Assembly: GCA_016191645.1 (NCBI GenBank) | Contig: JACPVQ010000121.1 | Coordinates: 1 to 38,214, forward strand | Length of the DNA: 38,214 nucleotides | Source of the DNA: Candidatus Solibacter usitatus | GTDB lineage: Bacteria; Acidobacteriota; Terriglobia; Bryobacterales; Bryobacteraceae | Reading direction: 5' to 3' | The notes under the pieces: model-generated | Seen by the model: only the letters and a program-made list of their open reading frames with translations | What the model was told of the DNA's origin: nothing | The model's database searches: none | Part shown: one piece after another, positions 1 through 30,045 of the stretch | Position numbering within the stretch: the first letter of the stretch is position 1 | How the letters are laid out: every line of letters begins with the position of its first letter | Made by a program: the position numbers and the translations under genes

Positions 1-2151
1 GATCTGCCGTCGCTGAATCTGCGTCAGATCGCGCCGGCGAACATGCAACAGTATCTGAAAATGTTCCCCGTGCCGAATCTGCCCGACTCGGTGAATGCCG
101 CCGGACGCGCCACTGGCTATGCGCAGGGCGTCTTCGCGGTCTCCAACCCCACGCGGCTCGACTCCACCAGCCTACGCCTCGACCACATGTTCAAACCCAG
201 CCTGCAGCTGTTCAGCCGCTACGCTTTTTCGCCTTCCGTATCGAGCGCCCGCGGGCAGCTTGCGGTCAACGACGTGTTTCGTTTCAACTCCGGCATGCAA
301 ACGTTCACCGCGGGATTGGTAGCCGTCGTGAGTCCTTCCATGACTAACGATTTCCGTTTCAATTTCAGCGGCGCTTCCGGCTGGCGCCGTTTTCTCTGGG
401 ACAATTACGCCGGAGGCGCGCCGCTTCCCGATTCCACCGTGTTCCCCGCGGGTTCTACCGTGGATGATTCCATCTTCAGTTTTCGCCTCAACAACGGCGT
501 GCTGACGCAGTTGCAGCACGGCACACTGGCACACAACTGGACGCGCCAGTTTAACTTTGTAGACAACTACAGCATTGTGCGCGGAGCGCATCACTTCAAG
601 TTCGGCTTGGATTTCCGCCGCTTGCGCGTGCGCACCGACAACTCTCGAACGCAACATCAAATCAGCTTCACCGACACCGGAGTTCTGACAACGCCCGCCC
701 CCGCGGGTACGCTGATGTCCGGGCTGGGCGCGGCGATCGTCGCCAAGAACGTTCCCGGCGGACTGTTCTTCAACAGCTGGTCATCCTTCTTCCAGGACGT
801 GTGGAAACTGAATTCCAGGCTGACATTAACTTATGGATTCCGATGGGAGATCAACCCGCCTCCTTCTCCGGAGACGCTGTATGTCGTCGCGTTCAATCCC
901 ATCAGCAGCCCATCCTCGCTCAGCCAGGCGTCCCAAGGTTCCCCGTTGTACTCCACAACCTACGGCAATCTGGCCCCGCGGGTAGGCTTGGCGTATCAAC
1001 TGCGCAAGAGCGCCAACTGGGCCACGGTGCTGCGCACGGGATTCGGAATGTTCTACGACACCGCCTATGGCCGGTTGTCGAACTTCCTGGGAACTCCGCC
1101 GTTCTCCTCCTTCGTCTCTCTGTCGAACATTCCGCTTCCCGCCTACACTCAATTGGCGAATTTTGTAATTCCAACCGCGCCGCCGTATTCCGGCCTCACG
1201 GGAGTGGACCCGGCGTTGAAACTGCCGCGCACCTACCAATGGAACGTTTCTATCGATCAACAACTCGGACGCGGACAGAATCTGACGATCTCCTACCTCG
1301 GCGCAATGGGATTGAATTTGTTTGTCGGTGAGCAGTTTCAGAACTTGAATTCCGCGTTCACCGGAATCACCGTCATCGGAGGCAATAACTCGTATTCGGA
1401 TTATGCGTCGTTGCAGGCGCAGTATCAGCGCCGGTTCTCTCGCGCGCTGCAGGCGCTGGTGTCCTATACCTGGGCGCACTCGCTGGACACCGCCTCGAAC
1501 GATACTTCAAACTTCCCGCACACCACAGATTATTATCCGGGGATGAATCGCGGCAGTTCCGATTTCGATGTGCGCCAGGTGTTCACGGCGGCTTTAGTGG
1601 CCCGTCTGCCTACACCGGGATTTGGCGGCAGCTTTGGCCGCGCCCTCATGAGCGGTTGGGGCGTGGATCCATTTTTCCGCGCGCGCACTGCCCTGCCCAC
1701 CGATATCGTGGCTACGCGAAATGTTCCGCTGGGGATTTCCACGCGGCTCAATTCCGTGCCGGGGCAGGCGCTGTACATTGACGATCCCATTCTGCCCGGC
1801 GGCCGCAGATTCAACGCCGCGGCATGGACTCTGCCAACGGGATTCGTGCAAGGGACGTTTGGCCGCAACATTGTGCGCGGTCTCGGATTCGGTCAGGTGG
1901 ATCTCTCCGTGCATCGCGATTTCGTTTATCACGAAAAGCTCACGCTGCAATTTCGCACCGATTTTTTCAACGTCAGCAATCATCCGAATTTCGGCAATCC
2001 GTCAGGAACCTACAACACGGCGACCACGTTCGGCGTTCCCACTGCCATGCTCGGGCGCAGTCTGAATTCCGCCTCGGCGGGCGGGTTCAATGCGTTGTAT
2101 CAAATCGGCGGTCCGCGCTCGATTCAGTTTTCCTTGAAGCTGTTGTTCTGA
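1..2151 (+). CDS. TonB-dependent receptor, Oar-like, C-terminal part (5' truncated by window edge)
   Basis: The reading frame is open from base 1 (716 residues visible), so the gene starts upstream of the window; the first internal ATG at 43 is not the true start. The protein resembles the beta-barrel part of acidobacterial Oar/carboxypeptidase-regulatory TonB-dependent receptors. It has long stretches of alternating aromatic strands, phrases such as FSRYAFSPS, FQDVWKLNSRLTLTYGFRWE and LVSYTWAHSLD, and a last strand ending in LKLLF with a terminal Phe, the usual outer-membrane barrel signature. The family sits in the outer membrane and imports large ligands with TonB energy. The substrate cannot be told from sequence. 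The plug and the regulatory-like domain must lie outside the window. Its stop codon overlaps the next start by one base, which suggests co-translation with the LRR genes downstream. Confidence 0.9.
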   Translation, partial: DLPSLNLRQIAPANMQQYLKMFPVPNLPDSVNAAGRATGYAQGVFAVSNPTRLDSTSLRLDHMFKPSLQLFSRYAFSPSVSSARGQLAVNDVFRFNSGMQTFTAGLVAVVSPSMTNDFRFNFSGASGWRRFLWDNYAGGAPLPDSTVFPAGSTVDDSIFSFRLNNGVLTQLQHGTLAHNWTRQFNFVDNYSIVRGAHHFKFGLDFRRLRVRTDNSRTQHQISFTDTGVLTTPAPAGTLMSGLGAAIVAKNVPGGLFFNSWSSFFQDVWKLNSRLTLTYGFRWEINPPPSPETLYVVAFNPISSPSSLSQASQGSPLYSTTYGNLAPRVGLAYQLRKSANWATVLRTGFGMFYDTAYGRLSNFLGTPPFSSFVSLSNIPLPAYTQLANFVIPTAPPYSGLTGVDPALKLPRTYQWNVSIDQQLGRGQNLTISYLGAMGLNLFVGEQFQNLNSAFTGITVIGGNNSYSDYASLQAQYQRRFSRALQALVSYTWAHSLDTASNDTSNFPHTTDYYPGMNRGSSDFDVRQVFTAALVARLPTPGFGGSFGRALMSGWGVDPFFRARTALPTDIVATRNVPLGISTRLNSVPGQALYIDDPILPGGRRFNAAAWTLPTGFVQGTFGRNIVRGLGFGQVDLSVHRDFVYHEKLTLQFRTDFFNVSNHPNFGNPSGTYNTATTFGVPTAMLGRSLNSASAGGFNALYQIGGPRSIQFSLKLLF

Positions 2152-4127
2152 TGCTGGGCGCGCGCACACTAGTTTTCGTCATACCCTTCACGGCGGCTCT
2201 TTGTGCGGAGCCCGATGATCGCCGCGTTGCCGAATGGGTGATCCAATCGGGCGGCCGCATTACAGTCGCTGGTGCCGGGCGCGTGTTGCGCACAAGTGCG
2301 GAGTTCCCATCCGGCGATTTTCATATCGATTCCATCGACTTGGTTGGCACGCTGATCGAAGCCAAGGATCTGTCGAGGCTGCGCAATCTGCGCCGTCTGC
2401 GAGCGCTCTATCTGCCCTCGGGCATGTGGTACTTCGTTGCGGGACGCAAGGACTCCAGCCCGGAGATGGGAGAGCTTCGCGACATCCTCTCCTTGGAAAG
2501 AATTCACGTCGGCCCGACGTTCGGACGCGAAATTCGAGTCTATGACGATGGCTTCGCGGCCTTAGCGGGCCTTACCAATTTGAAAGAACTTCGTCTCGAG
2601 TTGACGCGCGTCACCGCTGCGAATTTTGGAGCGTTCCGCAAACTCGAATTTCTCGATCTCAACGGAACCGCCGCAACCGACGAGAGTCTGAAAGCGCTGT
2701 CCGGCTTGACGCAACTCAAGAGACTCTACCTGGGGCACACCGCAATTACAAATGAGGCTTTGAAGCATCTTCGGAACCTGAACCGATTAGAAGATCTGGA
2801 GTTGGACGCGACACGCATCACCGGCGAGGGATTGGCCGCGCTCTCCGGTCTCGCATCGCTGCGGCGCTTGAGCCTGCTCGATACCATCGCCGGAGATTCG
2901 GCGCTGCCGCAACTGGCGAAACTGCGCGCGCTCGAAGAGTTGAATCTCTATCGAACGCGCGTCTCCAATGCCGGGTTGGAAGAATTGAAGCGGCTGCCGA
3001 ACCTTCGCCGCGTCGACCTGCGATACAGCCGCGCTACGGCATCGGGGGTGAAGCGTTTGCAGGCCGCCATGCCGCAGTGTACATTCATGGTTTCGGCCGA
3101 AGCCCGCGGCGTCGCCAAGCAGGTGGCCGCTCCGGAGTCGCGGGAACCCGCGGCGATCGTAGCCTGGATTCGAAGGCTCGGCGGCACGGCCGAATCAAAC
3201 GGCGGCTCCGTGATCGCAATCAATCTCTCCGGCACATCGATGCGCGATCAAGACATGCCGATCCTTACAGGCCTCACAGGTTTGCAGCGCTTGAATCTGA
3301 GCACGACGGAAATCGGCGATCTCGGCGCGCAGTCCTTGGCGGGCATGACCGCTCTGCGGGAACTGGATCTCAGTCATAGCCTGGTGTCCGATGAAGGATT
3401 GCGGCATTTGTCCAAACTCGCATCGCTGACGAGACTGAATCTGGGATACACGCTGGTGGAGGGATCCGGTCTTGCCCACTTGCAAGGCCTGACGCGGCTG
3501 AGCGATCTGCGGCTCAAAGGGATTGTCCACACGGTGGAGGCCGCGAAGAACATCGGGCGTCTTGCAGGCATCGAGCGACTCTCACTCGGCTACGGGCGCG
3601 TATCGGACGAGATGGTGTCCGCACTGCCGCTGACGAAACTTCATACTCTCGATCTGCTTTCCACCGCCATTACCGATGAAGGCATGGCGCATCTTGCGAA
3701 GGCGCGCAACTTGCGCGAGCTCTCTCTCAGCTATACACAAATCACCGACGAGGGTTTGAAACCTTTGAAGACGCTGCACGCCTTGGAACGGCTCGATTTG
3801 ATTGGCGTGGAACTCACTGACGAGGGGATGCCCGCGCTGGCCGGGATACACACGCTGACAAATCTCAATCTGGACTACACCGGCGTAACGGATGTGGGCG
3901 TCGCGACGCTCAAGACGCTGACGAACCTGACGGAGCTTCGCGTCGATAGCGCGGATGTGAGCGACGCGTCCATTCCCATTCTGGAATCGATGCGCGGAAT
4001 GAAGAGCCTCAACCTCTACCACACGTTGGTCACCGAGCAGGGCTACGCGCGGCTGCGGGCAAGTTTTCCCCAGTGTGAGATTATCTGGGACAGAGACTCC
4101 ATTCTTCCCAACCGGCGGAAAGGATGA
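2151..4127 (+). CDS. Exported leucine-rich-repeat protein with two fused LRR modules
   Basis: The start is the ATG at 2151, which overlaps the receptor stop (TGATG). The open frame reaches back to 1824, but only 2151 gives a signal peptide (MLGARTLVFVIPFTAALCAE). The 658-residue protein is built from about 24-residue repeats of the type L..L..LdLs.T.iTDeGl..L. Two modules can be seen. The first runs from a tryptophan cap (W29, WVIQSGG) to a cysteine end cap (C310, MPQCTFMV). The second runs from W339 (WIRRLGG) to C642 (FPQCEIIW). LRR arrays of this kind are binding scaffolds; the export signal places it in the periplasm or outside the cell. No catalytic motif is seen. The partner is unknown, but the coupling to the receptor points to a joint envelope role. 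Confidence 0.85.
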   Translation: MLGARTLVFVIPFTAALCAEPDDRRVAEWVIQSGGRITVAGAGRVLRTSAEFPSGDFHIDSIDLVGTLIEAKDLSRLRNLRRLRALYLPSGMWYFVAGRKDSSPEMGELRDILSLERIHVGPTFGREIRVYDDGFAALAGLTNLKELRLELTRVTAANFGAFRKLEFLDLNGTAATDESLKALSGLTQLKRLYLGHTAITNEALKHLRNLNRLEDLELDATRITGEGLAALSGLASLRRLSLLDTIAGDSALPQLAKLRALEELNLYRTRVSNAGLEELKRLPNLRRVDLRYSRATASGVKRLQAAMPQCTFMVSAEARGVAKQVAAPESREPAAIVAWIRRLGGTAESNGGSVIAINLSGTSMRDQDMPILTGLTGLQRLNLSTTEIGDLGAQSLAGMTALRELDLSHSLVSDEGLRHLSKLASLTRLNLGYTLVEGSGLAHLQGLTRLSDLRLKGIVHTVEAAKNIGRLAGIERLSLGYGRVSDEMVSALPLTKLHTLDLLSTAITDEGMAHLAKARNLRELSLSYTQITDEGLKPLKTLHALERLDLIGVELTDEGMPALAGIHTLTNLNLDYTGVTDVGVATLKTLTNLTELRVDSADVSDASIPILESMRGMKSLNLYHTLVTEQGYARLRASFPQCEIIWDRDSILPNRRKG

Positions 4128-5227
4128 CCATGCGATTCGCGGCCATTACGTTGTTGTTCGTCGCTTCCCTTCCCGCGCGGGAAAATGTCGCCGATTGGAT
4201 CGCGGCTTTGGGCGGTTCCGTGGTGAAGGATTCCGCCGGCGACCTCATCGAGGTTTCCTTGCGCGGGGCCTTTGTCGGCGATTCCGATTTGGAGCGGCTC
4301 CGCGATCTTCGCAAGTTGCGCCGGCTCGACCTTTCGTTGACGCGTATCACGGATGTTGCGTTGGAGCATCTGAAGGACCTTCCCTCTTTGACCGAGCTCG
4401 ACCTTACTTACGCCGAATCGGTTGGGGACGGCGGAGTGGCGCGCTTGCGCAGCGCGAAAAAGTTGGAGCGAATTTATCTTGAGGGAACGAAAGTCTCCGA
4501 TTCCGGAGCGGTATCGCTGGCCGCCATCTTGACGCTGCGCGTCATCAACCTGCGCTGCGCGCAGATTACGGACGCCGCGCTGGAGCGCTTGGAACCGCTG
4601 ACGCAACTGGAAGAATTGGTGGTGGGTGGCAATCGAATTACGGGACATGGTCTGGTCTACCTGCAAGCCTTGCCGTCGTTGAAGCTGCTGGATCTCAGCG
4701 GTGCGCAGACCACGGACAACGGTATCTCGTCGGTCACGCTGACGGACCGGAACATCGAGGGCCTCGCCGGATTGGCGGGCCTGGAATCGTTGAACCTCGC
4801 GAGCGTTGAGATTCCACGCGCCGGCGAGATTGGAGGAAATGGAATTCAGGAAGTGATTTCGCTGCGCGTCTCGGACGCCGGTTTGGAAAAGCTCATGAGC
4901 CTGCGCGCGCTGCGGAATCTTACTTTGACGCGCGCTCCCATTACGGGAAAGGGCATTGGCTTTCTGGCCCAGCTGCCCCGGTTGCAGAATCTGGTGTTGT
5001 CGCATGCGGAGAACATCGGCGATGAGGAGATGGACGCTCTGTCGAAGCTGGCGCGCCTGACCTCTCTCGATCTCAGCGGAACGAAAGTGAGTGATGCAGG
5101 CCTGCGAAAACTCGCGAAACAAAAGAGCCTGAGAATGTTGTATGTGTCCGGCAGCCGTGTCACCGCGAACGGCGTCGCCGAGCTGCTGCACACGTTGCCC
5201 GCCTGCAAGGTGGTGCGCAGTGAATAG
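4124..5227 (+). CDS. Exported leucine-rich-repeat protein, single module
   Basis: The 367-residue LRR protein has the same design as one module of the gene before it: signal peptide (RFAAITLLFVASLPA), cap tryptophan W25 in WIAALGG, about eleven TDxGL-type repeats, and a C-terminal cysteine cap (LPACKVV, C361). The ATG at 4124 overlaps the upstream stop (ATGA). A second ATG at 4130 has a better-spaced purine-rich AAAGGA sequence ahead of it and gives a cleaner signal peptide, so translation may start two codons later. The gene probably arose by duplication together with the two modules of the preceding gene. It is likely a secreted or periplasmic binding scaffold; the ligand is unknown. Its last codons overlap the start of the DUF1592 gene. 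Confidence 0.85.
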   Translation: MTMRFAAITLLFVASLPARENVADWIAALGGSVVKDSAGDLIEVSLRGAFVGDSDLERLRDLRKLRRLDLSLTRITDVALEHLKDLPSLTELDLTYAESVGDGGVARLRSAKKLERIYLEGTKVSDSGAVSLAAILTLRVINLRCAQITDAALERLEPLTQLEELVVGGNRITGHGLVYLQALPSLKLLDLSGAQTTDNGISSVTLTDRNIEGLAGLAGLESLNLASVEIPRAGEIGGNGIQEVISLRVSDAGLEKLMSLRALRNLTLTRAPITGKGIGFLAQLPRLQNLVLSHAENIGDEEMDALSKLARLTSLDLSGTKVSDAGLRKLAKQKSLRMLYVSGSRVTANGVAELLHTLPACKVVRSE

Positions 5228-7256
5228 CAGGCGGGCTGAAGCCCGCCGCAAGCTGAAGCTTGCCCTACAGACCCGTGGGGCAAGCTTCAGCTTGCGTGGG
5301 ACTTCAGTCCCGCTCTTCGCGTTGGCAATTCTTTCCCACTCCCTCCACGCCGCCGATCCTGCCGATCCGCTCTACTTCAGCCGCAACCTTTATCCCATTC
5401 TGCAAAAAGCGAACTGCCGCGGCTGTCACACGCAGGAGGGCGTCGGCTCCGCCACGCGCGTTCGATTTCCGGAGGAGCCGGCCGGCGCACAGGCAGTGGA
5501 AGCCTTCGGTCAAAGCCTGTTTGTCCTGGTTGACCGGCAAGCCCCCTCCCAGTCTGCCCTGGTGCTGAAGCCGACCAATCAACTGAGCCACGCAGGCGGC
5601 GAACGGATCGCCAAGGGCAGCGCCGAAGCGGCAGTCCTGCTCGCATGGGCCAACTACCTGGCGAAGAACCCAAATCCGTCGGCCGTCTCTTGGAATCCGG
5701 CAACCGGTTCGTCGCCTGCCGCGCGCCGCCTCACGCACAGCCAGTACAATCACACCGTTCGCGATCTTTTGGGAGACGCCACGCAACCCGCCAATCAGTT
5801 TCCGGAAGAAGATTTCGTCGACGGTTTCAAGAATCAGGTGCAGGCGCAGAGCATCTCGCCGATGCTCGCCGAAGCGTATGTCACAGCCGCGGAGAAGCTC
5901 GCTCGCAACGCATTTCGCTTTGGCGACCGTAATCATTTGATCCCCTGCAAGCCTGTTTCCCCGGCCGATGCGAAATGCGCGGGACAATTCATTCGCCAAT
6001 TCGGCTTGCGAGCCTATCGCCGGCCGTTGACCGCTTCGGAAGAATCCGCACTCGCCGCCGTATTCCTCAAGGAGGCCGCGCGCAGCGGGCAATTCCAATC
6101 CGGCGCGCGCATGACGATAGAAACGATGCTGCAATCCCCGGCGTTTCTGTTCCGCATGGAACGCGAGGCCGCAGGCTCCTTTGAAATCGCCGCGCGACTT
6201 TCCTACGCATTGTGGGACAGCATGCCCGATGCCGAGTTGTTTTCAAGCGCGGCAGCCGGGAAGCTTGTGATCGTCGAAGAGTTGGAGAAGCAGACGCGGC
6301 GCATGTTGCGCAATCCCAAGGCGCGCGACAGCTTCGACGAATTCATCTCGCAGTGGCTTCGATTCGACCGGCTGTTGGCCAGCGTGAAAGACCGGCGGTT
6401 GTACCCGTCCTTTAGCCCTTCCACGCTCGACGCCATGCTGGAAGAGACGCGCCGATTCCTGCATCATCTGGTTTGGGAGAACGGCAACTTCATGGAAGCG
6501 CTGTCGGCCGGCTACACGTTCGCGAATCAGGAACTGACTACGCTGTACGGACTTCCCGCGCCGCAGGCGCCATTCGCAATGGTGCGCTATCCCGCCGCTT
6601 CGGAACGCGCGGGCCTGTTGGGACAAGGGACGTTCCTGGCGCAAACGGGAAAGTCGGAGGAGACTTCGCCCACCGAACGCGGCCTCTTTATCCGCGCACA
6701 TTTCCTTTGCCAGAACGTGCCGCCTCCGCCGCCGGGCGTGAACACGACCTTGAAGCCTTTCGCCATTGGCGCGAAACCGATCACGAATCGCGAGCGCCTC
6801 ACAAAGGCGCACATCGCCAATCAGACCTGCGCCGGATGCCACGCCTTGATCGATCCCATCGGCTTTGGCCTGGAACGATTCGACACGTTGGGCAGGTGGA
6901 GCCTCAAGCAGCAGGTCATCGTCTTTCCAACCAAGGATCAGCGCTTCGAAGTGAAGCCCGAGAAACATGAGTTGGAGTTGGACACCGCGGCCAGTGTCCG
7001 CGGCATTCCCAATTCCGATTTCGATTCGGCGAAATCGTTGGGCCGCATTTTGGCAAACGATCCAACCTGTCAGGCGTGCATCGTGCGGCAATGGTTTCGC
7101 TTCGCCTTCGGACGGCGCGATCGCCAAAGCGATGCGGCCGATGTGGAACGAATGGCGGCGGACTTCCGCCGCTCCGGTTTTCACTTTCAGGATTTGATAT
7201 TGTCAATGGTAAGAAGCGAAGTGTTTCGCGGAACAAGAGAAAGGAAGACGCAGTGA
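5220..7256 (+). CDS. DUF1592/DUF1588/DUF1585-type protein with two CXXCH motifs (planctomycete-type cytochrome family)
   Basis: Domains in order: CXXCH motif near the N-terminus (C66-H70, CRGCH), a DUF1587-like segment ([18 protein letters not shown]), a DUF1595-like segment ([17 protein letters not shown]), DUF1592 ([28 protein letters not shown]), DUF1588 ([20 protein letters not shown], then [10 protein letters not shown] and [11 protein letters not shown]), a second CXXCH (C537-H541, CAGCH, followed by DPIGFGLE), and a DUF1585-like end with CQAC (C617). Family members are exported and are thought to bind haem c; their reaction is unknown. The GTG at 5220 is chosen because AAGG lies nine bases upstream and because it overlaps the LRR stop by eight bases. 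A TTG at 5292 would give a tighter signal peptide ([19 protein letters not shown]). The first 30 codons are partly made of the palindromic repeat. DUF1592 and DUF1552 genes are regular neighbours in Planctomycetes and Acidobacteria. Confidence 0.88.
5230..5313. repeat. Compound palindromic intergenic-type repeat at a gene junction
   Basis: A perfect 18-base inverted repeat (5248-5265 and 5278-5295, arm GCAAGCTGAAGCTTGCCC) encloses a 12-base loop. It is flanked by a self-palindromic GCGGGCTGAAGCCCGC (5231-5246) and a degenerate relative (GTGGGACTTCAGTCCCGC, 5296-5313). The nested design on the shared core GCTGAAGC/GCTTCAGC looks like a dispersed REP-like element. It begins three bases after the LRR stop and lies inside the 5' part of the DUF1592 frame, so it could act as an RNA hairpin between the two genes. 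Confidence 0.75.
7241..7245 (+). promoter_or_regulatory. Ribosome binding site of the DUF1552 gene
   Basis: AAGGA lies seven bases before the GTG at 7253. It decides for this GTG over the open frame that reaches back to 7076. It lies inside the end of the DUF1592 gene. Confidence 0.7.
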
Positions 7257-8536
7257 CGCTGCCGCGCCGGACGTTTCTTCGCGGGATGGGAGCCGCGGGT
7301 TCCGTCATCCGGCTTGCGCTACCCCCTCTGGCTGCGATGTTCAACTCGCACGGGACATCCTATGCCGCGGGCGAAAGCATTCCATCGCGCTTCCTGTTGT
7401 GGTTCAACGGCAACGGAATCCCGGAGCGCTTCTGGATTCCGTTCGATAGCGGGACCGAATATGAATTGACGCCGTGCCTTGCGCCTCTGGCCCCGTTTCG
7501 CAAGCATCTGCACGTGATCTCCGGCCTCGACAGCCCCAACGCGCGAGTGGCTGGAACCGGCAATGAGCACATGCGATCGATGAGCGCGCTGGTCTCCGGC
7601 GAACGGTTTACCGGAAGCGGGGCGGGCGCGGCTTCCATCGACCAGTTGATTGCCGCCAGGATTGGCACGGACACGCGCTTCCGTTCGATTCAAGTGGGTG
7701 TATGTCAGGAATCGTTCGGTCACAGCATGCAGCGGAATTTAAGTTGGGCCGGCCGTGACCGCCCGCTTCCTCCGGAAGTGATTCCGCACAAGTTATTCGA
7801 CCGTCTCTTTGGTACAAAAGACTACGGCTGGGTCAATCGCAAGATGAGCGTTTTGGATGCGGTGTACAAAGGCGCGGAAAGCCTTGGCACACATCTCGGA
7901 AGCGAAGACAAGAAGCGCGTCGATGAATACCTGGCATCCGTTCGCGATATGGAACGCGCCATCCTGCAGCTTCCGCCGGACTACGCAAAACCGGACGCGC
8001 ACGATATGGAAGCGGATCCACGAGACTGGCCCGCCGTGGCGAAGATTCAATCCGATTTGATCGCGCATGCTTTTGCATCCGGCCAAACGCGCGTCACCAG
8101 TTACATGTTGACGAAGTGCCAGAGCCTGACACGTTTTCCGTGGCTTGGGTTGGGTTCGGCGCGTCATCACGATTACACGCACACCCAGCGCGGAACCATC
8201 GAGCATCAGGAAGTGATGCGCGACATCTGCCGCTGGCACGTCGAAGAGTTCGCCTACCTTCTCGGCAAACTGAACTCGATGCCCGAAGGCGCGGGCACGC
8301 TGCTCGATCGAACATGTCTTTTGTATCTGCACGAACACGCCGAAGCGAACGATCACAAGAACAGCGGCATGGCGGCGATTGTCGCCGGACACGCCGCGCA
8401 GTTGGTGACCGGCCGCCACACGCGGACCACCGGCACCGTCGGCGACCTCTACATGGCTCTCGCCAATCGCGTGCTTGGCGCGGGCATTGACAGCTTCCCG
8501 ACATCTTCAACGGTGTTGCGCGGCGTCGTTGCATGA
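7253..8536 (+). CDS. DUF1552 family protein, Tat-exported
   Basis: The 427-residue protein starts with GTG, overlapping the upstream stop (GTGA), and begins with a clear twin-arginine signal ([15 protein letters not shown]). The body matches the DUF1552 family: [44 protein letters not shown], and the late [20 protein letters not shown] with several conserved His and Glu. The family is of unknown function, resembles DUF1501/sulfatase-like folds, and is nearly always found beside DUF1592 genes. Twin-arginine export implies that it folds in the cytoplasm, perhaps around a cofactor or metal, before reaching the periplasm. Length fits the family (about 430-450). The downstream kinase start overlaps its stop (ATGA). 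Confidence 0.9.
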
Positions 8537-11130
8537 CGCCTTACCGCATCGAGGAAAAGATTGGCGAAGGTGGCATGGGCTCGGTCTACCGGGCGTTTGA
8601 CACGAAACTCAACCGTCCGGTGGCCATCAAGTTTCTATCAAACGAGTTGGCCGACGCTACCGCGCGCCATCGCTTCCAACGCGAAGCGCAGATGGCGTCG
8701 TCGCTGAATCATCCGCACATTCTCACCGTTCACGATGCGGGCGAATTCGAAGGCCGCCAGTATCTGGTGACGGAATACATCGACGGCGGCACGTTGAAAG
8801 AATGGGCGCGCGCGGGCAAACACACGTGGCCCGAAGTGGTCGATCTACTGGTGGGCGTGGCCGACGGACTGGCCACGGCGCACGCCGCCGGCATCATGCA
8901 TCGCGACATCAAGCCCGCCAATATTCTCCTCACCAAAAGCGGCTACGCCAAACTCGCGGACTTCGGACTGGCGAAGTTGATGGAGGATCGTAAATCGGAA
9001 GAGTGGCATACGAAGACCGGGCTGGTGGTCGGCACCATCGCCTATCTATCGCCCGATCAGGCGGCCGGTCAACCTGTGGATGCGCGCAGCGACATTTTTT
9101 CGTTCGGCGTGATTCTATACGAGATGCTGGCGGGAAAGCGTCCGTTTGCTGGAGCGACGGATCTCGAAGTAATGCAGAAGATTATTCACGCCGCGCCGGA
9201 GCCGTTGGGACATCAGATTCCGGCGGCATTGCGCGCCGTGGTGGATAAGGCGCTGGAGAAGAATCCCGAAGAGCGCTACCAATCGATGCGCGAGATGGTG
9301 GTGGATCTGCGGCGGATCACGCGTCAGAGTACGGAAACGGTAGCGCTGGCGCGGCCATTCGCATCGCGCCGTATGTATTGGTACGCCGCTCTGATGTTGG
9401 TGGCGATTGCCGCCGCCGTGATCGTGTACCGGTCACAACAGTCCGCGTCGCCCGCGCGCATGGAGTACGTGCAGCTCACCACCTTCGCCGACTCCGCAAC
9501 TTCACCTGCGCTTTCGCCTGACGGGCGTATGCTGACATTCATTCGCGGAGAGAGCACCTTCGCGGGAACAGGGGAGATCTACGTGAAGCTTCTTCCCAAC
9601 GGGGATCCAGTGCAGCTGACGCATGACGGGTTGAGCAAGATGAGCCCGGTGTTCCTGCCGGACGGAAGCCGCATTTCGTACAGCGTAGTGAACGGCGGCA
9701 TGGGCGCTCACAATTGGGACACATGGACGGTGCCCGTGCTGGGTGGAGAGCCAAGCCGCATGCTATCGAATGCATCCGCGTTGGAATGGATTGGAACCAA
9801 CGCCGGCTCGCCGCGCGTGATGTTTTCCGAATGGGGAGTGGGCAGCCATTTGAAGATTATCGCCGCCGACGGGAATCGGGCCAGAGCGCGAACGGTGTAT
9901 GCGCCGGTGAGCCTGGACGGCATGGCGCACCGGTCCTATCTATCTCCTGACGGAAAGAACGTGTTGGTTGTGGAGATGGATGGCGGTTGGCGTCCGTGCC
10001 GTCTGATTCCGTTTGAAGGCGGCGGTCCGGGAAAGCTGGTCGGGCCTTCGCCAGGCCAGTGCACAACAGCCGCCTGGTCGCCCGACGGGAAGTGGATGTA
10101 TTTTTCCGCCAATACGGGAAATGGCTACCATATTTGGCGGCAGAGATATCCCGATGGCTCCCCGGAACAGGTGACGGTGGGCGCAAGCGAAGAGGAAGGA
10201 ATCTCCTTCGCCCCCGGAGGCAAAGCGTTTGTCACTTCGATTGGCACGCTCCAAAGCACGATCTGGGTGCATGACGCGCGCGGCGACCGGCAGATCACCT
10301 CGCAAGGCTACGCCACGCTTCCCAGTTTTTCCGCCGACGGCACGAAGCTTTACTATTTGTTGCGATCACGCTCCAACCGTCGCTTTGTCAGCGGAGAACT
10401 GTGGGTGACCAACCTCGCAACGGAAAAGAACACGCGGCTGCTTCCCGATTCGTTGATGGAACATTACAGTGTTTCCGCGGACGGCGAACGCATCGTCTAC
10501 GCGGCGATCGATGAGAACGGGCATACGCCGGTTTGGCTGGCCACGCTCGACCGGAGCGCCGCGCCGCGGCGGTTGTCCGCTTTGGATGCCTCGCGCGTTT
10601 TCTTCGGCGGCAACGGAGATGTGTTTTTTCTGGGTTGGGAGGATGAAAGGTCGAAGTTCGTTTACCGCATGAAGGAAGACGGAAGCGGGTTGCAAAAAGC
10701 GATTCCGCGTCCGGTCGCTTATATGTACGATGTTTCGCCCGATGGGAAACTCCTGGCAGTGTTGACGGAGGAAGGAACCTCTGCCTACCCGACCGATGGC
10801 GGCGAGCGCATTCAGGTTTGTCCGTTCTGTTCCGGAGCCGGTGGCGACCGGCGAGGTGTGACGCCGCCGGCGGCGAGTTGGTCGGCAGATGGAAAATACT
10901 TCCATCTGAATATGCGCTCCGCTTCTCAAATCTACGCGGTTCCGCTGCAACCGGGGAAAAGCCTGCCCTTGCTGCCGCCGGCGGGGATCCGCTCACAAGC
11001 GGATGCCGATAGAATGCCCGGCGTGAAAATCATCCGCGAGGCCCGCGCTTATGTCAGTGCGAACCCGGACGTGTACGCATTTCCGCGGCTGTCGACGCAT
11101 CGCAACATCTACCAGATCCCCGTGCCGTAG
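8533..11130 (+). CDS. Membrane Ser/Thr protein kinase with C-terminal PD40/TolB-like propeller
   Basis: The 865-residue protein has an N-terminal Hanks-type kinase: glycine loop GEGGMGSVY (11-19), lysine K33 in VAIKF, catalytic loop HRDIKPAN with D125, and DFGLA with D143. The APE-like element reads LSPDQA, with Asp where its paralogs in this window have Glu. One membrane helix follows (about 281-300, [19 protein letters not shown]). The C-terminal 560 residues hold repeated SPDG-type blades of a PD40/TolB-like propeller, presumably periplasmic. A CPFC cysteine pair lies near the C-terminus. The kinase domain starts almost at residue 1. It is the last gene of the coupled run, so it may sense a product of the upstream envelope proteins and phosphorylate cytoplasmic targets. 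Its 3' end overlaps the convergent nuclease gene by 22 bases. Confidence 0.92.
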
Positions 11131-11908: not shown

Positions 11909-11937
11909 TTGTCATTCTGCGGCATAACTTCAATAAT
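11909..11937 (+). promoter_or_regulatory. Candidate sigma-70 promoter of the metallo-hydrolase gene
   Basis: TTGTCA (11909-11914) and AATAAT (11932-11937) are 17 bases apart, close to the housekeeping consensus. The transcript would start only a few bases before the Shine-Dalgarno, giving a very short leader. Inferred from pattern only. Confidence 0.4.
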
Positions 11938-11939
11938 AT

Positions 11940-11948
11940 GGAGAAGGA
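11940..11948 (+). promoter_or_regulatory. Ribosome binding site of the metallo-hydrolase gene
   Basis: The purine-rich GGAGAAGGA ends five bases before the ATG at 11954. It fixes that start in preference to the upstream TTG at 11909. Confidence 0.7.
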
Positions 11949-11953
11949 CGCAC

Positions 11954-13000
11954 ATGCAAATCACCAGGAGGCAGTTGCTCGCGGCGGGAGCATCTCTCCC
12001 GCTCATGGCCGCAAAACGGACGCCGGCGACGCCGCTGCTTGATCGAGGCTTTGCGCGCGTGACGCGCATTGCCGACGGTGTGTACGCCACCATAGCGGAC
12101 GCCTCGAAGGGTCCGCAATGCGCCTCCAACGGCGGCGTGATTGCCGGCCGCGATGCCGTGTTGATCGTCGAAGGTCACATGCAGCCCGAAGGAGCGGCGC
12201 TGGAAATCGAGATTGCGCGCACTTTTGGAAAGGCTCCCGTGCGCGCCGCCGTGGATACTCATTTTCATCTCGATCACAGCTTTGGAAATCGTGCCTACGC
12301 CGATCAAGGCATCGCCATCATGGCTCACGAAATGTCGGCCACGCTGATGAAGCAGCGCTACGTGGATGTGCAGGGAAAGGACAAGACGGATCTGTTCGCG
12401 CCGTGGGTGCGCAAGGCCGGGCAGGCAACCGGCGCCGCCGACAAGAAGCGCAGGGAGATCGATGTGGAACGGATCCGATGGATGTACTCCACCATCGACA
12501 GCGCATCCATCACGCTTCCCACCGAACTCTTGCGCACGCCGGACTTTCCCAAGCGGATCGACTTGGGCGGGTTGACCGCCGTGATCGAATTTCACCCCGG
12601 ACACACGGTAACGGATCTTGTGATTCACGTTCCGGAGCGTGGCGTGGTATTCGCCGGCGACCTTCTCTTTCACCGCGCCTATCCGGTTTGCATCGATGCC
12701 GATATGATCGCCTTGCGCAAGGCGCTTGGTCACTTCTCCAGCTATGGCCGCCGTACGCAGTTTGTTCCGGGCCATGGCCCCGTGTGCGGGCAGGAGACGG
12801 TGCGGGACCAGATTCACCTTATCGATGACTTGCATCGCCATGCCGAAAAAATGATTCGCATGGGTGTTCCAGCCGCCGAAGCGGAGCGCCGTTATGTTGT
12901 CCCTGCGGCATTTCAAAACTATCGCAATACGGCGTGGGGTTGGACCGTCGGGGCGGCGATGGAGAGTTACTATCGCCACGCGGCATCGCCTCAATCGTGA
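11954..13000 (+). CDS. Metallo-beta-lactamase-fold hydrolase, Tat-exported
   Basis: The 348-residue protein starts with a twin-arginine-like signal (MQITRRQLLAAGASLPLMAA). It carries the metallo-beta-lactamase zinc motif THFHLDH (H103, H105, D107, H108), a second-sphere block GHTVTDLVIH, the metal-bridging Asp in VVFAGDLLF, and the late His in FVPGHGPV. All ligands of a dinuclear zinc site therefore appear present. Such enzymes hydrolyse lactams, esters or thioesters in many pathways; the substrate is not evident. An Arg-rich stretch between the motifs (DKKRREIDVERIRWMYS) looks like a helical insertion. The start is set by a strong ribosome site. A GT39 gene follows 14 bases after the stop and may be read through. 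Confidence 0.88.
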   Translation: MQITRRQLLAAGASLPLMAAKRTPATPLLDRGFARVTRIADGVYATIADASKGPQCASNGGVIAGRDAVLIVEGHMQPEGAALEIEIARTFGKAPVRAAVDTHFHLDHSFGNRAYADQGIAIMAHEMSATLMKQRYVDVQGKDKTDLFAPWVRKAGQATGAADKKRREIDVERIRWMYSTIDSASITLPTELLRTPDFPKRIDLGGLTAVIEFHPGHTVTDLVIHVPERGVVFAGDLLFHRAYPVCIDADMIALRKALGHFSSYGRRTQFVPGHGPVCGQETVRDQIHLIDDLHRHAEKMIRMGVPAAEAERRYVVPAAFQNYRNTAWGWTVGAAMESYYRHAASPQS

Positions 13001-18059: not shown

Positions 18060-20696
18060 ATGACCATCGGACCTGGGACTACACTCGGACCTTACGAGAT
18101 CCTTTCGCTGCTTGGCGAGGGCGGGATGGGATCTGTGTGGAAGGCCCGCGATCCGCGGCTGGGGCGATTCGTCGCGATCAAGGTTGCGCGGGTGCAGTTC
18201 TCGGAACGCTTCGACCGGGAGGCGCGCGCGGTCGCAGCATTGAATCACAACAACATTTGCACGTTGTACGATATCGGCCCCAACTACCTGGTAATGGAGT
18301 TCATCGAGGGGCCTACGCTGGGTGCGCGCATTCAGCAAAGCCCGATGACCTTGAACGAAGCGACGCCCATTCTGCGGCAGTTGGTGGATGGCATCGAGGC
18401 GGCGCATGAGAAGAATATCTATCATCGCGATCTGAAACCGGACAACATCAAGATCACTCCCGAAGGCGTCGTGAAAATACTCGACTTCGGATTGGCTAAG
18501 GCGGCCGATCCACCGCCCATGCCCGATGACCCCGCCAACGCGCCCACTCTTCGCATCATGACTGTGGCAGGCATGATCATGGGCACGCCGTCTTACATGT
18601 CGCCGGAGCAGGCGGCGGGCAAACCGGTCGATAAGCGCGCCGACATCTGGGCTTTTGGCGTGATCGTTTGGGAGATGCTGACGAAGACGCAATTGTTCGG
18701 CGGCGAGACGATTGCGCACACGCTGGCGGAGGTTCTCACCAAGGAATTGAATCTCGACGGCACGCCGCAGAGCATCCGGCCGCTGCTCACGCGCTGCCTG
18801 ATTCGCGAAGCGAAAGAGCGCATGCGCGATATCGGCGAGGCGCGCATTGCGTTGAACAAAATTGCGGCGGGGGAGCAGGAAGCCATCTCCGCGCCGCCGG
18901 TACTCGCAAGGGGCAGGCGGCTCTTTCCCGCACTTGCGGCGATCTTCGCGCTGCTCGCAGTGGGCGCCGCCATCTACTCTTGGTTTGCGACGCGGCCAGT
19001 GAAGCAGCAGTTCGTGACGCTGGATACGAATCTTGGCGCGCCCGCGCCCATGGACACGCTGTGGGCAACTCTCGGCATCTCGCCGGATGGATCGCGCATC
19101 GCCTTCGTCGCCAATGTCAAAGGCGGCAGAATGTTGTTTTCGAGGAGACTCGATCAGGAATCGGCGACGGTGATTCCCGGCACTGAGGACGCGGCGTATC
19201 CTTTCTTTTCGCTGGATGGACGATGGATCGGGTTCTTCGACACAGGCAGTCTCAAGAAGGTCTCCGTGGACGGCGGCACCCCCATCACCTTGTGCGAAGC
19301 CGCCGCGGGACGCGGCGCGAGTTGGGGAGAGGATGGCAACATCATCGCCTCGCTTGGAAATGCTCAGGGATTAACTCTGATTCCGGCCGCCGGAGGGAAG
19401 CCGTCCGCGCTCACGCAACTCGACAAGACAGAGAGCACGCACCGCTTTCCCTCCGTACTTCCGGGCGGGCGCGGCGTCCTCTTCTTCGCCAGCCAATCGG
19501 GAAACTATAACGTCGGCAACATCGAGGTCTTCTCCTTTAAGGATCGTAAGCGCCGGGTGTTGGTGAATGGGACCTATCCGCGCTATCTGGCGAGCGGCCA
19601 TTTGGTCTACCTTAAATCCTCTACCTTGTTCGCGCTGCCATTCGACATCGGCAGCATGACGGTGAAAGGATCGCCATTCCCATTGGTGGACCATGTGGCC
19701 GTGCGTGAGGGCAGAGGCCACGGGCTCTATGATGTCTCACGCAACGGGACGCTGATCTTCTACCGCTCTTCTTCTTTGGACGGTGGAGGCGACACCCTCA
19801 AATGGTTGGAGGCCGCGGGCCGTGGGGCTGATATTCCGGGCATCACGGGCGTTCTGTCACAGAGGCTCGCTCCCGACGGCAAGAAAGTCGCCTACGTCTC
19901 GTTGCAAAACAGCCGTGCCACCTTGCTTGTCTATGACCTGCAGCGCGCGTCGAAGACAACACTGACCTTCGAACATTCCGTTTCGGACTTCGCGTGGACA
20001 CCGGACTCCCGCGGAATTTTCTTTTCGGCGGGGGGCCTTCTGTTCTGGACTCGTGCCGATGGGGCTTCCCAACCGCAAAAGATCCTGGAGGAAAAAGAGC
20101 CGCTGTTTCTCCACGACATTTCGCAGGACGGCCAATTACTGTCCTTCGGGAAATCCCGCACGGCGATTTATAACGCCAAACTAGAATACGACGGCAAACC
20201 GTCAGGAGAGACTGCGCCGCGTGTTGGAAAGCTGGAACAATGCTGCCGGGACGGCCGTGTGATGTTCGGGTCGCGTATTTCTCCTGACGGGAAGTGGATC
20301 GCGTTTCATTCCATTGAGGCGTCCGCGCCACAAGTCTATGTGCGCTCCATTCCCGATAGCGGGGCGAAATGGCATGTCTCGGTGGACGGCGGCGCATCGC
20401 CGGTGTGGTCGCCGAACGGGCGGGAGCTGTTCTACAAACTGCAATCGGGCCGCATCATGGTGGTCGAGTACACATCCAAGGGCGGCGTGTTTAGTCCCGG
20501 CATTCCGCGTAGCTGGAGCGAACAGCGCGTTTCCGGCGGTGCAACGATTGCCAATATGAGTCTTACTCCGGATGGGAAGCGGATGCTGGTGATGGCCGCG
20601 CGGGCCGGGCAGGAGAGCGAGGCCTCGCCGCAGGCCACCATCATCTTTAATCTCTTCGAGGAAGTGCGACGCCGGGCGCAGGCTAGCGGGCAGTAG
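18060..20696 (+). CDS. Membrane Ser/Thr kinase with PD40 propeller, array copy 1
   Basis: The 878-residue protein has a Hanks kinase domain at residues 12-275: GEGGMGSVW (19-27), K41 in VAIKV, HRDLKPDN with D124, DFGLAKA, GTPSYMSPEQA. All catalytic residues are present. A membrane helix follows (LFPALAAIFALLAVGAAIY, about 283-302), then a periplasmic propeller with many SPDG/DG blades (ISPDGSRIAF, WTPDSRGIFF, WSPNGRELFY, LTPDGKRMLV). A vicinal cysteine pair (C728-C729, GKLEQCCRD) is shared with the two following paralogs. The ATG at 18060 lies in the motif GCGATGACC without a clear Shine-Dalgarno. It is the first of three tandem copies and likely senses an envelope signal through the propeller. 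Confidence 0.92.
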   Translation: MTIGPGTTLGPYEILSLLGEGGMGSVWKARDPRLGRFVAIKVARVQFSERFDREARAVAALNHNNICTLYDIGPNYLVMEFIEGPTLGARIQQSPMTLNEATPILRQLVDGIEAAHEKNIYHRDLKPDNIKITPEGVVKILDFGLAKAADPPPMPDDPANAPTLRIMTVAGMIMGTPSYMSPEQAAGKPVDKRADIWAFGVIVWEMLTKTQLFGGETIAHTLAEVLTKELNLDGTPQSIRPLLTRCLIREAKERMRDIGEARIALNKIAAGEQEAISAPPVLARGRRLFPALAAIFALLAVGAAIYSWFATRPVKQQFVTLDTNLGAPAPMDTLWATLGISPDGSRIAFVANVKGGRMLFSRRLDQESATVIPGTEDAAYPFFSLDGRWIGFFDTGSLKKVSVDGGTPITLCEAAAGRGASWGEDGNIIASLGNAQGLTLIPAAGGKPSALTQLDKTESTHRFPSVLPGGRGVLFFASQSGNYNVGNIEVFSFKDRKRRVLVNGTYPRYLASGHLVYLKSSTLFALPFDIGSMTVKGSPFPLVDHVAVREGRGHGLYDVSRNGTLIFYRSSSLDGGGDTLKWLEAAGRGADIPGITGVLSQRLAPDGKKVAYVSLQNSRATLLVYDLQRASKTTLTFEHSVSDFAWTPDSRGIFFSAGGLLFWTRADGASQPQKILEEKEPLFLHDISQDGQLLSFGKSRTAIYNAKLEYDGKPSGETAPRVGKLEQCCRDGRVMFGSRISPDGKWIAFHSIEASAPQVYVRSIPDSGAKWHVSVDGGASPVWSPNGRELFYKLQSGRIMVVEYTSKGGVFSPGIPRSWSEQRVSGGATIANMSLTPDGKRMLVMAARAGQESEASPQATIIFNLFEEVRRRAQASGQ

Positions 20697-20720
20697 CTGA
20701 ACAAGAAAGAAGAACTTTTT

Positions 20721-20804
20721 GCCACAGATGGACACAGATGCACACAGATAAGACCAACACGGTTTGTTTTTTCTTATCTGCGTGCATCTGTGTCCATCTG
20801 TGGC
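20721..20804. repeat. Long hairpin repeat between kinase copies 1 and 2
   Basis: A 32-base inverted repeat (20721-20752 and 20773-20804) pairs with one mismatch around a 20-base loop. Each arm is made of about 10-base units of the type CACAGATGGA. Together with its flanks (AAGAAAGAA before, CTAATAATGTTTGTTTGAT after) it fills most of the gap up to the next start. The same module is found before kinase copy 3. Units of this kind are common dispersed intergenic palindromes in bacteria. Confidence 0.85.
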
Positions 20805-20822
20805 TAATAATGTTTGTTTGAT

Positions 20823-23477: not shown

Positions 23478-23500
23478 ACAACACAAGAAAGAACTTTTGG

Positions 23501-23586
23501 CCACAGATGGACACAGATGAACACCGATAAGCACAACACAGTGGTTTGTTTTTCTTATCTGTGTCCATCTGTGTCCATCTGTGGCT
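23501..23586. repeat. Long hairpin repeat between kinase copies 2 and 3
   Basis: Arms 23501-23532 and 23555-23586 (32 bases each) pair with two mismatches around a 22-base loop. Units and flanks match the repeat at 20721-20804, including the downstream TAATAATGTTTGTTTGAT. Gene and spacer were therefore probably duplicated together, or the spacer has been kept for a role. Confidence 0.85.
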
Positions 23587-23603
23587 AATAATGTTTGTTT
23601 GAT

Positions 23604-29800: not shown

Positions 29801-30045
29801 CCTTGCGCCGTGATGACCACGGAGTAAAATCCGCGCGGCAAGGCGAGAATTTGGAAGTAGCCGTTCGCATCGCACACGGCGGTTTGCACAATGCCGGTCT
29901 CGACATTCGTGATGGTTGCCTTCGCGCCCGGCATCAGTCCGCCGGAGGCGTCCTTCACGGCGCCGAGAATGGAGCCGGCGGTTCCTGTCTGCGCGAAGGC
30001 AGAGCTTACTCCAATCACCAAGAACAATGCGAGTGCGCGCAGCAT
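26848..30045 (-). CDS. TonB-dependent receptor, Oar-like, complete
   Basis: The 1065-residue protein has a signal peptide (LALFLVIGVSSAFAQ), a carboxypeptidase-regulatory-like beta-sandwich (about residues 22-110, GSILGAVKDASGGLMPGAKA, GYFQILALPRGFYSVVI), a plug domain (about 125-260, QQIRDLPLNGRDPLQMVNL, FTIDGMSANDP), and a long beta-barrel ending in MQAGLKLIF with a terminal Phe. Length and order fit acidobacterial Oar-like outer-membrane transporters. The ligand is unknown. Relative to the partial receptor at the start of the window it is a separate, distantly related paralog. A textbook Shine-Dalgarno (AGGAGG) lies eight bases before the ATG. It is divergent from the ankyrin gene and convergent with the unknown gene at 26253. 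Confidence 0.95.
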   Translation of the reverse strand: MLRALALFLVIGVSSAFAQTGTAGSILGAVKDASGGLMPGAKATITNVETGIVQTAVCDANGYFQILALPRGFYSVVITAQGFTTWRLNSTELVAGEQKRLQPTLTPGDVKQEVTVAGGAEVVQTERASVEMSISQQQIRDLPLNGRDPLQMVNLVPGLRYLGVTVAAVQGRQMSGLGQHEDATQFTIDGMSANDPSTETGMGFPNLDAVAEFRVQTSSFSAENGRNPLQVTMITKSGSNQYRGTLWEFLRNDKLDARNTFLPERDRLRRNQYGFSVGGPLQKNKTFFFATYEGLALRRQGGYNSITIDPAFLNGNFSSLLPRAVITDPTTGRGFDGNIIPAARFSNASKFFFPYVLQPNAPNNRFVAFAPLPQDGTNFMLRLDRQITANQKAYARWIRVADGQDTVGYRPDVVNSAQLRQHNSALNYDWTVSPSILITVAGGLLLSDYGQVSPLVGKENLTEKAGIQGFATALRPTAIGLPTVAFTGYTGFGWAGQVPSSFKRTVINGRAGVNMIRGKHTIIGGAEYLDNRTNTAHSSTNPRGSFTFNNQYTGNGFADYLLGLVQVAAANVPLAAFGVAHSPYSALYVEDTWRVLPTLTLTAGLRWDYWWEKDFVRGAGSTFDAKSGKAVAGENKSGQVDLTSQPVAPFYGAATRDLWMSATQAGMPRGLYISSGYVSPRLGAAWRPMGKDDFVIRAGYGIFAASYNGNVTGSSIIGPPYWASQNITFARASNQRWETAFPADPDRFVAPSIAAAVVDIKPMKIHEFNLSVQHSVPWLHAALTVSYVGSRGWDLTAFPRTNTAAPGSYTNLQAALPFPRFGTINLYKSIGSAWFNGGQLKLEKRFAQGLTYLLSYSLNRDISLYGSDTTFGPTLYAPPNYDQGTSPNERRHVLSVSGIYELPFGRGKRWGGAMPKVVNGIFGGWQLSSVYRFIAGAPLTLVVGGATLGNGVNARPDVVGDWHVSNPGPNQWFNTNAFARPANFRFGNSAPGAITGPATHLLDTGFFKNFGLGEKRFLQFRWEMFNAMNEVNLGNPVTTIGLATTGQITGAGGPRRMQAGLKLIF

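Follow-up and report, generated by a model that had tools for sequence, protein, structure and literature searches.

Leucine-rich repeat genes linked to one DUF1552 clade in an acidobacterial gene run

Genes of the PSCyt3 type in freshwater Verrucomicrobia usually adjoin a gene from one of two unknown families. They lie near sulfatases, and a part in carbohydrate use has been proposed from this context, with a periplasmic or cytoplasmic location predicted for the products (PMC5615132). DUF1800 and DUF1501 genes form predicted operon pairs, some of them beside chitin synthase genes and one member carrying a twin-arginine motif (PMC5122149). In a wheat-straw metasecretome, a CBM2-bearing Cellvibrio protein named for DUF1592 was listed as unique to the biotin-labelled fraction, and another CBM2 entry that shares its best hit was present in both fractions (PMC6004670). 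The open-licence literature yielded no established function for DUF1592, DUF1552 or their relatives. Here we describe a locus in Candidatus Solibacter usitatus (contig JACPVQ010000121.1) where DUF1592 and DUF1552 genes directly follow two genes for leucine-rich repeat (LRR) proteins, LRR1 and LRR2. The window, the 38,214-nucleotide stretch that was analysed, is the whole contig (C143), one of 267 contigs in an incomplete 4.47-Mb genome. DUF1592, DUF1552 and their relatives occur here in many copies per genome, and PSD2 matches in this genome number 13. Comparison with related genomes gives good support for a four-gene module made up of the following genes.

2151-4127, + strand: LRR1, an exported-looking LRR protein of 658 amino acids (Pfam LRR_4/LRR_8/LRR_6)
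4124-5227, + strand: LRR2, an exported-looking LRR protein of 367 amino acids, used as the module marker (Pfam LRR)
5220-7256, + strand: DUF1592 protein (PSD3-PSD5-PSD4-PSCyt3-PSD2), start at GTG 5220 or TTG 5292
7253-8536, + strand: DUF1552 (HXXSHH) protein of the 'WFNGNGI' clade (PF07586, E 3e-70), with a twin-arginine start

An LRR pair linked to a single DUF1552 clade

DUF1552 genes from 41 related genomes were grouped by their identity to the gene in the window. Members of the 'WFNGNGI' clade are 56-66% identical to it, and all others are at most 37% identical among the full-length matches listed. Relatives from named genomes are mostly from Bryobacterales or from metagenome-assembled genomes of Acidobacteria. 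An LRR2 gene lies within 10 kb of 34 of the 61 clade genes and of 0 of the 87 other DUF1552 genes listed (Fisher p 4.6e-17 among the genes listed, the relatives not being independent). The window was excluded from this count, and a 129-amino-acid clade-like fragment (G020:C398) was placed in neither list. On gene positions, the LRR pair belongs with one DUF1552 clade.

The arrangement of the genes was compared in 39 stretches from the 41 genomes, each anchored on LRR2. LRR1 adjoins LRR2 in 35 of these, and DUF1592, DUF1552 or both are present in 23. Relative to the LRR genes, DUF1592/DUF1552 are co-directional and downstream in L041, L044, L046, and L058, co-directional and upstream in L049, convergent in others (e.g., L029-L039), and divergent in L056. 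Because this set had been picked by LRR2, a second was anchored on DUF1552, using an alignment scan of named genomes and the best 80 of 257 confirmed stretches. LRR1/LRR2 matches were present in 33 of the 80 loci and DUF1592 in 72. Placement of the LRR genes in the 33 loci was upstream co-directional in 10, convergent in 19, downstream co-directional in three, and divergent in one. Where at least 6 kb was available on both sides, LRR genes were found in 21 of 48 loci, and in 20 they were no more than 6 kb away.

LRR2 and clade DUF1552 were both present in 30 of the 41 genomes and both absent in 11, with no discordant genome. No pair within 10 kb was seen in 8 of the 30 genomes having both, some of which are perhaps cases of split contigs. 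Among 257 genomes of the order (LRR2 cut-off E ≤ 1e-30, two fragmentary DUF1552 matches scored as present), 105 have both, 149 have neither, two have LRR2 only, and one has clade DUF1552 only. DUF1552 genes of other clades only are carried by 91 genomes of the order, and LRR2 was found in two of those. Several genera hold both kinds of genome (e.g., g232, g233, g237, g281), and for this reason LRR2 and clade DUF1552 seem to have come or gone together on more than one occasion. A tree built from 81 clade sequences with two outgroup rows has LRR linkage on its deep branches, which suggests that the linkage is old and was lost repeatedly. Linkage changes 14 times on this tree versus about 25 times in shuffles, some of the rows scored as unlinked being short contigs.

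An even sample of 396 genomes from the phylum, scored with the same LRR2 cut-off, has both genes in two (G000, G228) and one only in four; the tight co-occurrence rule is therefore shown for the order and not for the phylum. Clade DUF1552 is rare in this sample, occurring in the source genome, G228, and G301. G228 belongs to another class and has two clade DUF1552 copies, each convergent with LRR genes.

Several observations weigh against a single four-gene unit. Neither DUF1592 nor DUF1552 was found in 16 of the 39 LRR2-anchored stretches, and LRR matches are missing from the stretch at 47 of the 80 clade loci, some of their contigs being short. In the phylum sample, LRR2 was not found in G301, which has a clade DUF1552, and three genomes (G154, G177, G393) have LRR2-type matches (E 1e-37 to 1e-40) without a clade DUF1552; these matches cover part of the model only and lie inside long open reading frames (ORFs). 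Close relatives are not independent, linked genes partly co-occur by travelling together, and some of the cases counted as unlinked co-occurrence may be split contigs. The LRR pair and the DUF1592/DUF1552 pair, one a putative heme protein and the other enzyme-like, probably work as one machine because they are so strictly co-inherited.

Predicted proteins and a proposed role

All four module proteins look exported. Signal-peptide-like N-termini were recognized by eye in LRR1, LRR2, and DUF1592, as was the twin-arginine N-terminus of DUF1552; given this signal, DUF1552 is perhaps folded with a cofactor before export. LRR1 has a second cap resembling that of LRR2 from about residue 336 (base 3156, by eye) and looks like two LRR2-type units in tandem. 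In L083, LRR2 and LRR1 are fused as a single ORF. The following elements lie within the DUF1592 and DUF1552 genes or at their borders.

5233-5310, no strand: palindromic dispersed repeat with arms at 5233-5268 and 5275-5310 (36 nt each, 86% complementary)
5415-5429, + strand: first CXXCH motif (CRGCH), read in the DUF1592 sequence
6828-6842, + strand: second CXXCH motif (CAGCH), read in the DUF1592 sequence
8162-8182, + strand: RHHDYTH segment of DUF1552, with His 305, 306, and 310
8330-8356, + strand: HEHAEANDH, the clade form of a DUF1552 segment that reads D-G-N-x-H in most other members

The five families PSD3, PSD5, PSD4, PSCyt3, and PSD2 all match the DUF1592 protein above the curated Pfam cut-off, and a weak DUF1800 match falls just under it (E 9.1e-6). 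The Cys pair and the His of both CXXCH motifs, which are of the c-type heme kind, are invariant in 47 aligned sequences, and the best reading of the protein is a predicted periplasmic diheme protein. The AlphaFold2 model, built from TTG 5292, has a predicted local distance difference test score (pLDDT) of 90.8 and a predicted template modelling score (pTM) of 0.89. It had zero matches in the PDB at E ≤ 0.001, so that the predicted fold has no PDB counterpart at the sensitivity used. A search by sequence gave no convincing solved homolog either, the best hit being a short nanobody match (E 0.034).

The start of DUF1592 is doubtful because the dispersed palindrome sits on its junction with LRR2, before the signal-peptide-like segment that precedes the residues ADP and inside the reading frame from GTG 5220. 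The palindrome has matches on nine other contigs of the same genome. In L070, the closest relative of the locus, the repeat is missing and LRR2 and DUF1592 simply share ATGA, and the palindrome is therefore probably a later insertion. Translation may not begin at GTG 5220, and TTG 5292 is an alternative.

The DUF1552 protein scores 237.7 bits against PF07586 (cut-off 30). The full HXXSHH motif is missing, as the window protein reads HHDYTHT; profile membership is still clear. The last His of the motif is missing in 17 of 18 aligned rows, and L060 has it. His 305, 306, and 310 are identical in 84, 86, and 86 of 86 non-clade sequences, and His 368 is also family-wide (86 of 86), which gives the protein a conserved site rich in His. 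No convincing solved homolog was found by sequence (best E 1.2). The AlphaFold2 model (pLDDT 79.8, pTM 0.84) matched 24 PDB chains by Foldseek at E ≤ 0.001, led by sulfatases and alkaline-phosphatase relatives, and the predicted fold resembles the alkaline-phosphatase/sulfatase type.

Other DUF1592/DUF1552 genes were compared at 90 loci, 79 from relatives and 11 from the source genome, with DUF1552 present in 89 and DUF1592 in 75. An ankyrin protein is encoded within 5 kb at 15 of the 90 loci versus 0 of the 80 LRR-clade loci, and at 13 of the 15 the ankyrin gene is directly downstream on the same strand. No LRR2-type gene was found within 5 kb at any of the 90. One contig of the source genome, C5, carries two tandem DUF1592-DUF1552-ankyrin sets (L157:6451-16230), and both of its ankyrin proteins look exported. 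The 15 loci amount to fewer events because many are orthologs. In the flanks of other DUF1552 loci (among L150-L248), 9 of the 101 proteins counted are ferrochelatase, which has a link to heme, perhaps from one shared locus in related genomes.

With moderate confidence, we propose that the module joins a periplasmic diheme protein and a metal-site enzyme to clade-specific exported solenoids that act in docking, perhaps for processing a carbohydrate-like polymer. DUF1552 would carry out metal-dependent chemistry on an extracytoplasmic substrate, DUF1592 would accept or supply the electrons of this reaction, and the pair of LRR solenoids would keep the substrate or partner proteins in place. The substrate class is a guess, a polymer with carbohydrate character. 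Where a receptor is present it might import the product, and the kinase downstream in the window would be a lineage-specific or accidental neighbor.

Single neighbors fit carbohydrate chemistry: in L046 LRR1 and a weak GH43/GH32-like region are joined, a sulfatase lies beside LRR2 in L060, and BD-FAE lies beside LRR1 in L085. The CBM2-bearing DUF1592 protein of the straw metasecretome (PMC6004670) and the nearness of PSCyt genes to sulfatases (PMC5615132) hint in the same direction. Flanking proteins were counted in an LRR-linked set (94 scanned of 117 selected, with near-copies left out) and around other DUF1552 loci. Among the near-copies are two L090 proteins, a receptor and a member of the sulfatase family, both similar to rows retained from L081. 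Two points tell against the proposed role. Sulfatases make up 4 of 94 LRR-linked flanking proteins versus 3 of 101 at other DUF1552 loci, with no clear enrichment, and the fold match of DUF1552 is modest (TM-score about 0.4, large root-mean-square deviation), the likeness being one of predicted fold. The idea of a dedicated carbohydrate locus was set aside, as the flank counts do not prove it.

The LRR pair could instead be a scaffold for assembly, anchoring, or protein partners that does not bind substrate, in which case envelope maintenance or cell-cell contact would be possible functions in place of nutrition. This alternative is favored by the common use of both LRR and ankyrin repeats in protein interaction, by the diversity of the flanking genes, and by the comparable place held by ankyrin genes at the 15 loci, directly downstream at 13, with none at the LRR-clade loci. 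The ankyrin loci are, however, partly orthologous to each other, and 75 of the 90 loci have neither an ankyrin nor an LRR2-type gene within 5 kb. The joining of LRR1 to a glycoside hydrolase (GH)-like region in L046 points instead to polymer contact, as does a DUF1592 protein bearing a carbohydrate-binding module (CBM) (PMC6004670). We regard a pure scaffold as possible, if rather doubtful.

The gene run, the receptor, and the kinase

In the window the module is flanked on the same strand by two further genes, giving a run of six (receptor, LRR1, LRR2, DUF1592, DUF1552, kinase) that spans 1-11130 on the + strand.

1-2151, + strand: outer-membrane beta-barrel receptor (OMP_b-brl_4; PF25183, E 2.4e-116), 5' end cut by the contig end
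8533-11130, + strand: Ser/Thr kinase (Pfam Pkinase and PD40), with kinase motifs present and a PD40 propeller

All five junctions overlap. The receptor stop (TGA 2149-2151) shares one base with the ATG of LRR1 at 2151, and the LRR2 stop (TAG 5225-5227) overlaps GTG 5220 of DUF1592 by eight bases. Four bases are common to the end and start of LRR1 and LRR2 (ATGA 4124-4127), of DUF1592 and DUF1552 (GTGA 7253-7256), and of DUF1552 and the kinase (ATGA 8533-8536). These overlaps of 1, 4, 8, 4, and 4 bases agree with an earlier note on this DNA and were read directly in the sequence, the third start codon being doubtful. The family calls of the note also held in Pfam: OMP_b-brl_4; LRR; PSD3-PSD5-PSD4(DUF1592)-PSCyt3-PSD2; HXXSHH (DUF1552); and Pkinase with PD40. 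The run stands out locally, since the seven other same-strand neighbor pairs in the window have gaps of 9-926 bases and zero overlaps when the first possible start of every ORF is used. A promoter/terminator scan found no sigma-70-like promoter on the + strand of 1-11130, but its number of sites was not above that in shuffles (four versus a shuffle mean of 3.4).

The earlier note inferred that all six genes form one system, perhaps for sensing and taking up a polymer or ligand; in this view the receptor, the LRR scaffolds, and the redox pair would act with a kinase whose propeller is the sensor. The five tight overlaps favor this view; the positions of relatives do not. In the 41 genomes none of the best 30 receptor relatives (at most 40% identical) has a typed LRR2 or a clade DUF1552 match within 10 kb, and none of the best 21 kinase relatives lies within 10 kb of a listed DUF1552. 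Receptors number 6 among the 94 LRR-linked flanking proteins versus 8 of 101 at other DUF1552 loci and are on this count not enriched; kinases are absent from the 25 commonest families in the LRR-linked flanks (94 proteins) and number 3 of 101 at the other loci. Matches anywhere in the stretch are somewhat in favor, with a kinase in 5 of 80 DUF1552-anchored and 2 of 39 LRR2-anchored loci and a receptor in 12 of the 80. Both families are very common, and the window alone adds three more kinases and one more receptor.

The receptor match covers positions 119-829 of the 838 in the profile. LRR1 is immediately preceded by a same-strand receptor gene in three of the nine other co-directional loci whose upstream DNA could be read (L070, L095, L122), weak support for a six-gene system. 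The receptors in that slot differ from that of the window in all three; the one in L070 is just 25% identical to it, and L070 has no kinase behind DUF1552. As a core member of the module the receptor was rejected on the lack of flank enrichment, the directly upstream slot being the only hint in its favor. Another receptor gene of the OMP_b-brl_4 family, full-length and including a CarboxypepD_reg domain, lies at 26848-30045 on the - strand of the window.

The kinase has one transmembrane-like segment at about residues 283-299. PASTA-type receptor kinases carry extracytoplasmic PASTA repeats; this kinase has none and bears the PD40 propeller instead. Its upstream neighbors were surveyed in eight relatives (at least 48% identical over long stretches) and the window, with two of the relatives (L260, L261) starting at contig edges. 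Upstream DNA could be read for seven of these close family members, and in three of the seven the kinase follows a gene of the DUF1552/DUF1501 class, a post hoc count that includes the window. One is in genome G025 (L256:1530-8032), where PSCyt2-DUF1553 and DUF1501 are followed by a kinase that is 58% identical and then by a ferritin-like gene. Another from G025 (L258) comes after an ORF in which PSCyt1 is combined with a DUF1501 end, which counts for less because this ORF is at the contig end and looks chimeric. The gene upstream is of another class in L257, L259, L262, and L263. These two G025 places are a weak lead, and each gives the six-gene view weak support. As a general rule, kinases following DUF1501 were set aside: in five genomes with 157 DUF1501 and 394 kinase matches, coordinates compared by eye among the matches listed look to be at chance level, with closeness only in C941 and perhaps G014:C16, C316 having a DUF1501 end only.

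Two further loci bear on the kinase position. In the source genome a propeller kinase that is 40% identical is convergent beside a non-clade DUF1552 (L151:5834-9924), again a weak point for the six-gene view, and in L069 (1774-4429) two NHL beta-propeller genes follow DUF1552 (73% identical), the first overlapping its end in the slot of the kinase. Weighed together, the positions of relatives and the flank counts led us to reject the six-gene system as a conserved unit, and the view as a whole is unlikely. In other genomes, the four-gene neighborhood recurs in four arrangements and the six-gene run is not conserved. What stands of the earlier claim is the joining of the LRR pair with DUF1592/DUF1552; the receptor and kinase are, from their positions in relatives, not conserved members.

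Other genes were recorded near the run and its relatives. Three tandem PD40-propeller Ser/Thr kinases at 18060-26243 of the window are about 64% identical to each other and about 34% identical to the kinase at 8533, and from their sequences are a local expansion. A metallo-beta-lactamase-fold protein is encoded downstream of the kinase at 11909-13000, and the gene for a similar one in G025 (L261:3230-4303) shares four bases with the end of a related kinase gene. An MtrC/MtrF-like multiheme cytochrome gene (L138:11547-13496) is located downstream of an LRR1-LRR2-DUF1592-DUF1552 run.

That shared genome blocks simply carry the LRR genes and the DUF1552 clade along together, without a joint function, is very improbable: close relatives do share blocks, and g16 genomes share much of the neighborhood, but the LRR genes take four arrangements relative to DUF1552, joint presence without visible linkage is seen in 8 of 30 genomes, and both states occur within single genera such as g232, g233, g237, and g281.

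The proposed module of a diheme protein, a metal-site enzyme, and docking solenoids can be extended, tentatively, to other pairs. DUF1592/DUF1552 might be a general redox/metal-enzyme engine of the envelope, with specificity set by a clade-matched exported solenoid (LRR or ankyrin) and with propeller kinases recruited as sensors behind DUF1552- or DUF1501-type pairs. If true, bacteria would have here a surface system whose recognition modules can be exchanged. The choice of partner, LRR proteins in one clade and ankyrin in some others, suggests what may distinguish the many paralogous pairs. A specific and nearly obligatory partner is also a handle on these families, usable as pull-down bait, deletion pair, co-folding target, or phyletic marker.

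Comparison with known systems

The open-licence literature held no paper on DUF1592 together with DUF1552 and none on PSCyt with leucine-rich repeats, and in the source text available from it no description was found of a four-gene module with a clade-specific LRR partner. A polysaccharide utilization locus of the SusCD type is conserved as a unit and combines a SusC-like receptor with glycoside hydrolases and a SusD-like lipoprotein. The window differs, as its receptor is not conserved and SusD and GH are absent among the genes scanned, which took in part of its ORFs.

The PSCyt3/PSD genes of Verrucomicrobia resemble the window in that a DUF1592-type gene lies beside a family of unknown function; the available text of that study describes neither an LRR or ankyrin partner nor a matching of partner to clade (PMC5615132). 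The DUF1800/DUF1501 genes are likewise an operon pair of unknown function with a twin-arginine motif, and the weak DUF1800 match in the DUF1592 protein is a further likeness, but they belong to other Pfam families, and an LRR partner is not mentioned in the text available (PMC5122149). The Cellvibrio protein shares the DUF1592 name and an extracellular location with the protein described here. It differs in carrying its own CBM, and the accessible part of its source mentions no LRR partner (PMC6004670). The alkaline-phosphatase/sulfatase superfamily (PDB 1p49 and others) provides the best Foldseek matches of the DUF1552 model, the top one with E 1.6e-5 and a probability of 1.00. At a TM-score of about 0.4 and about 10% identity, DUF1552 is likened to this superfamily tentatively, by its predicted fold.

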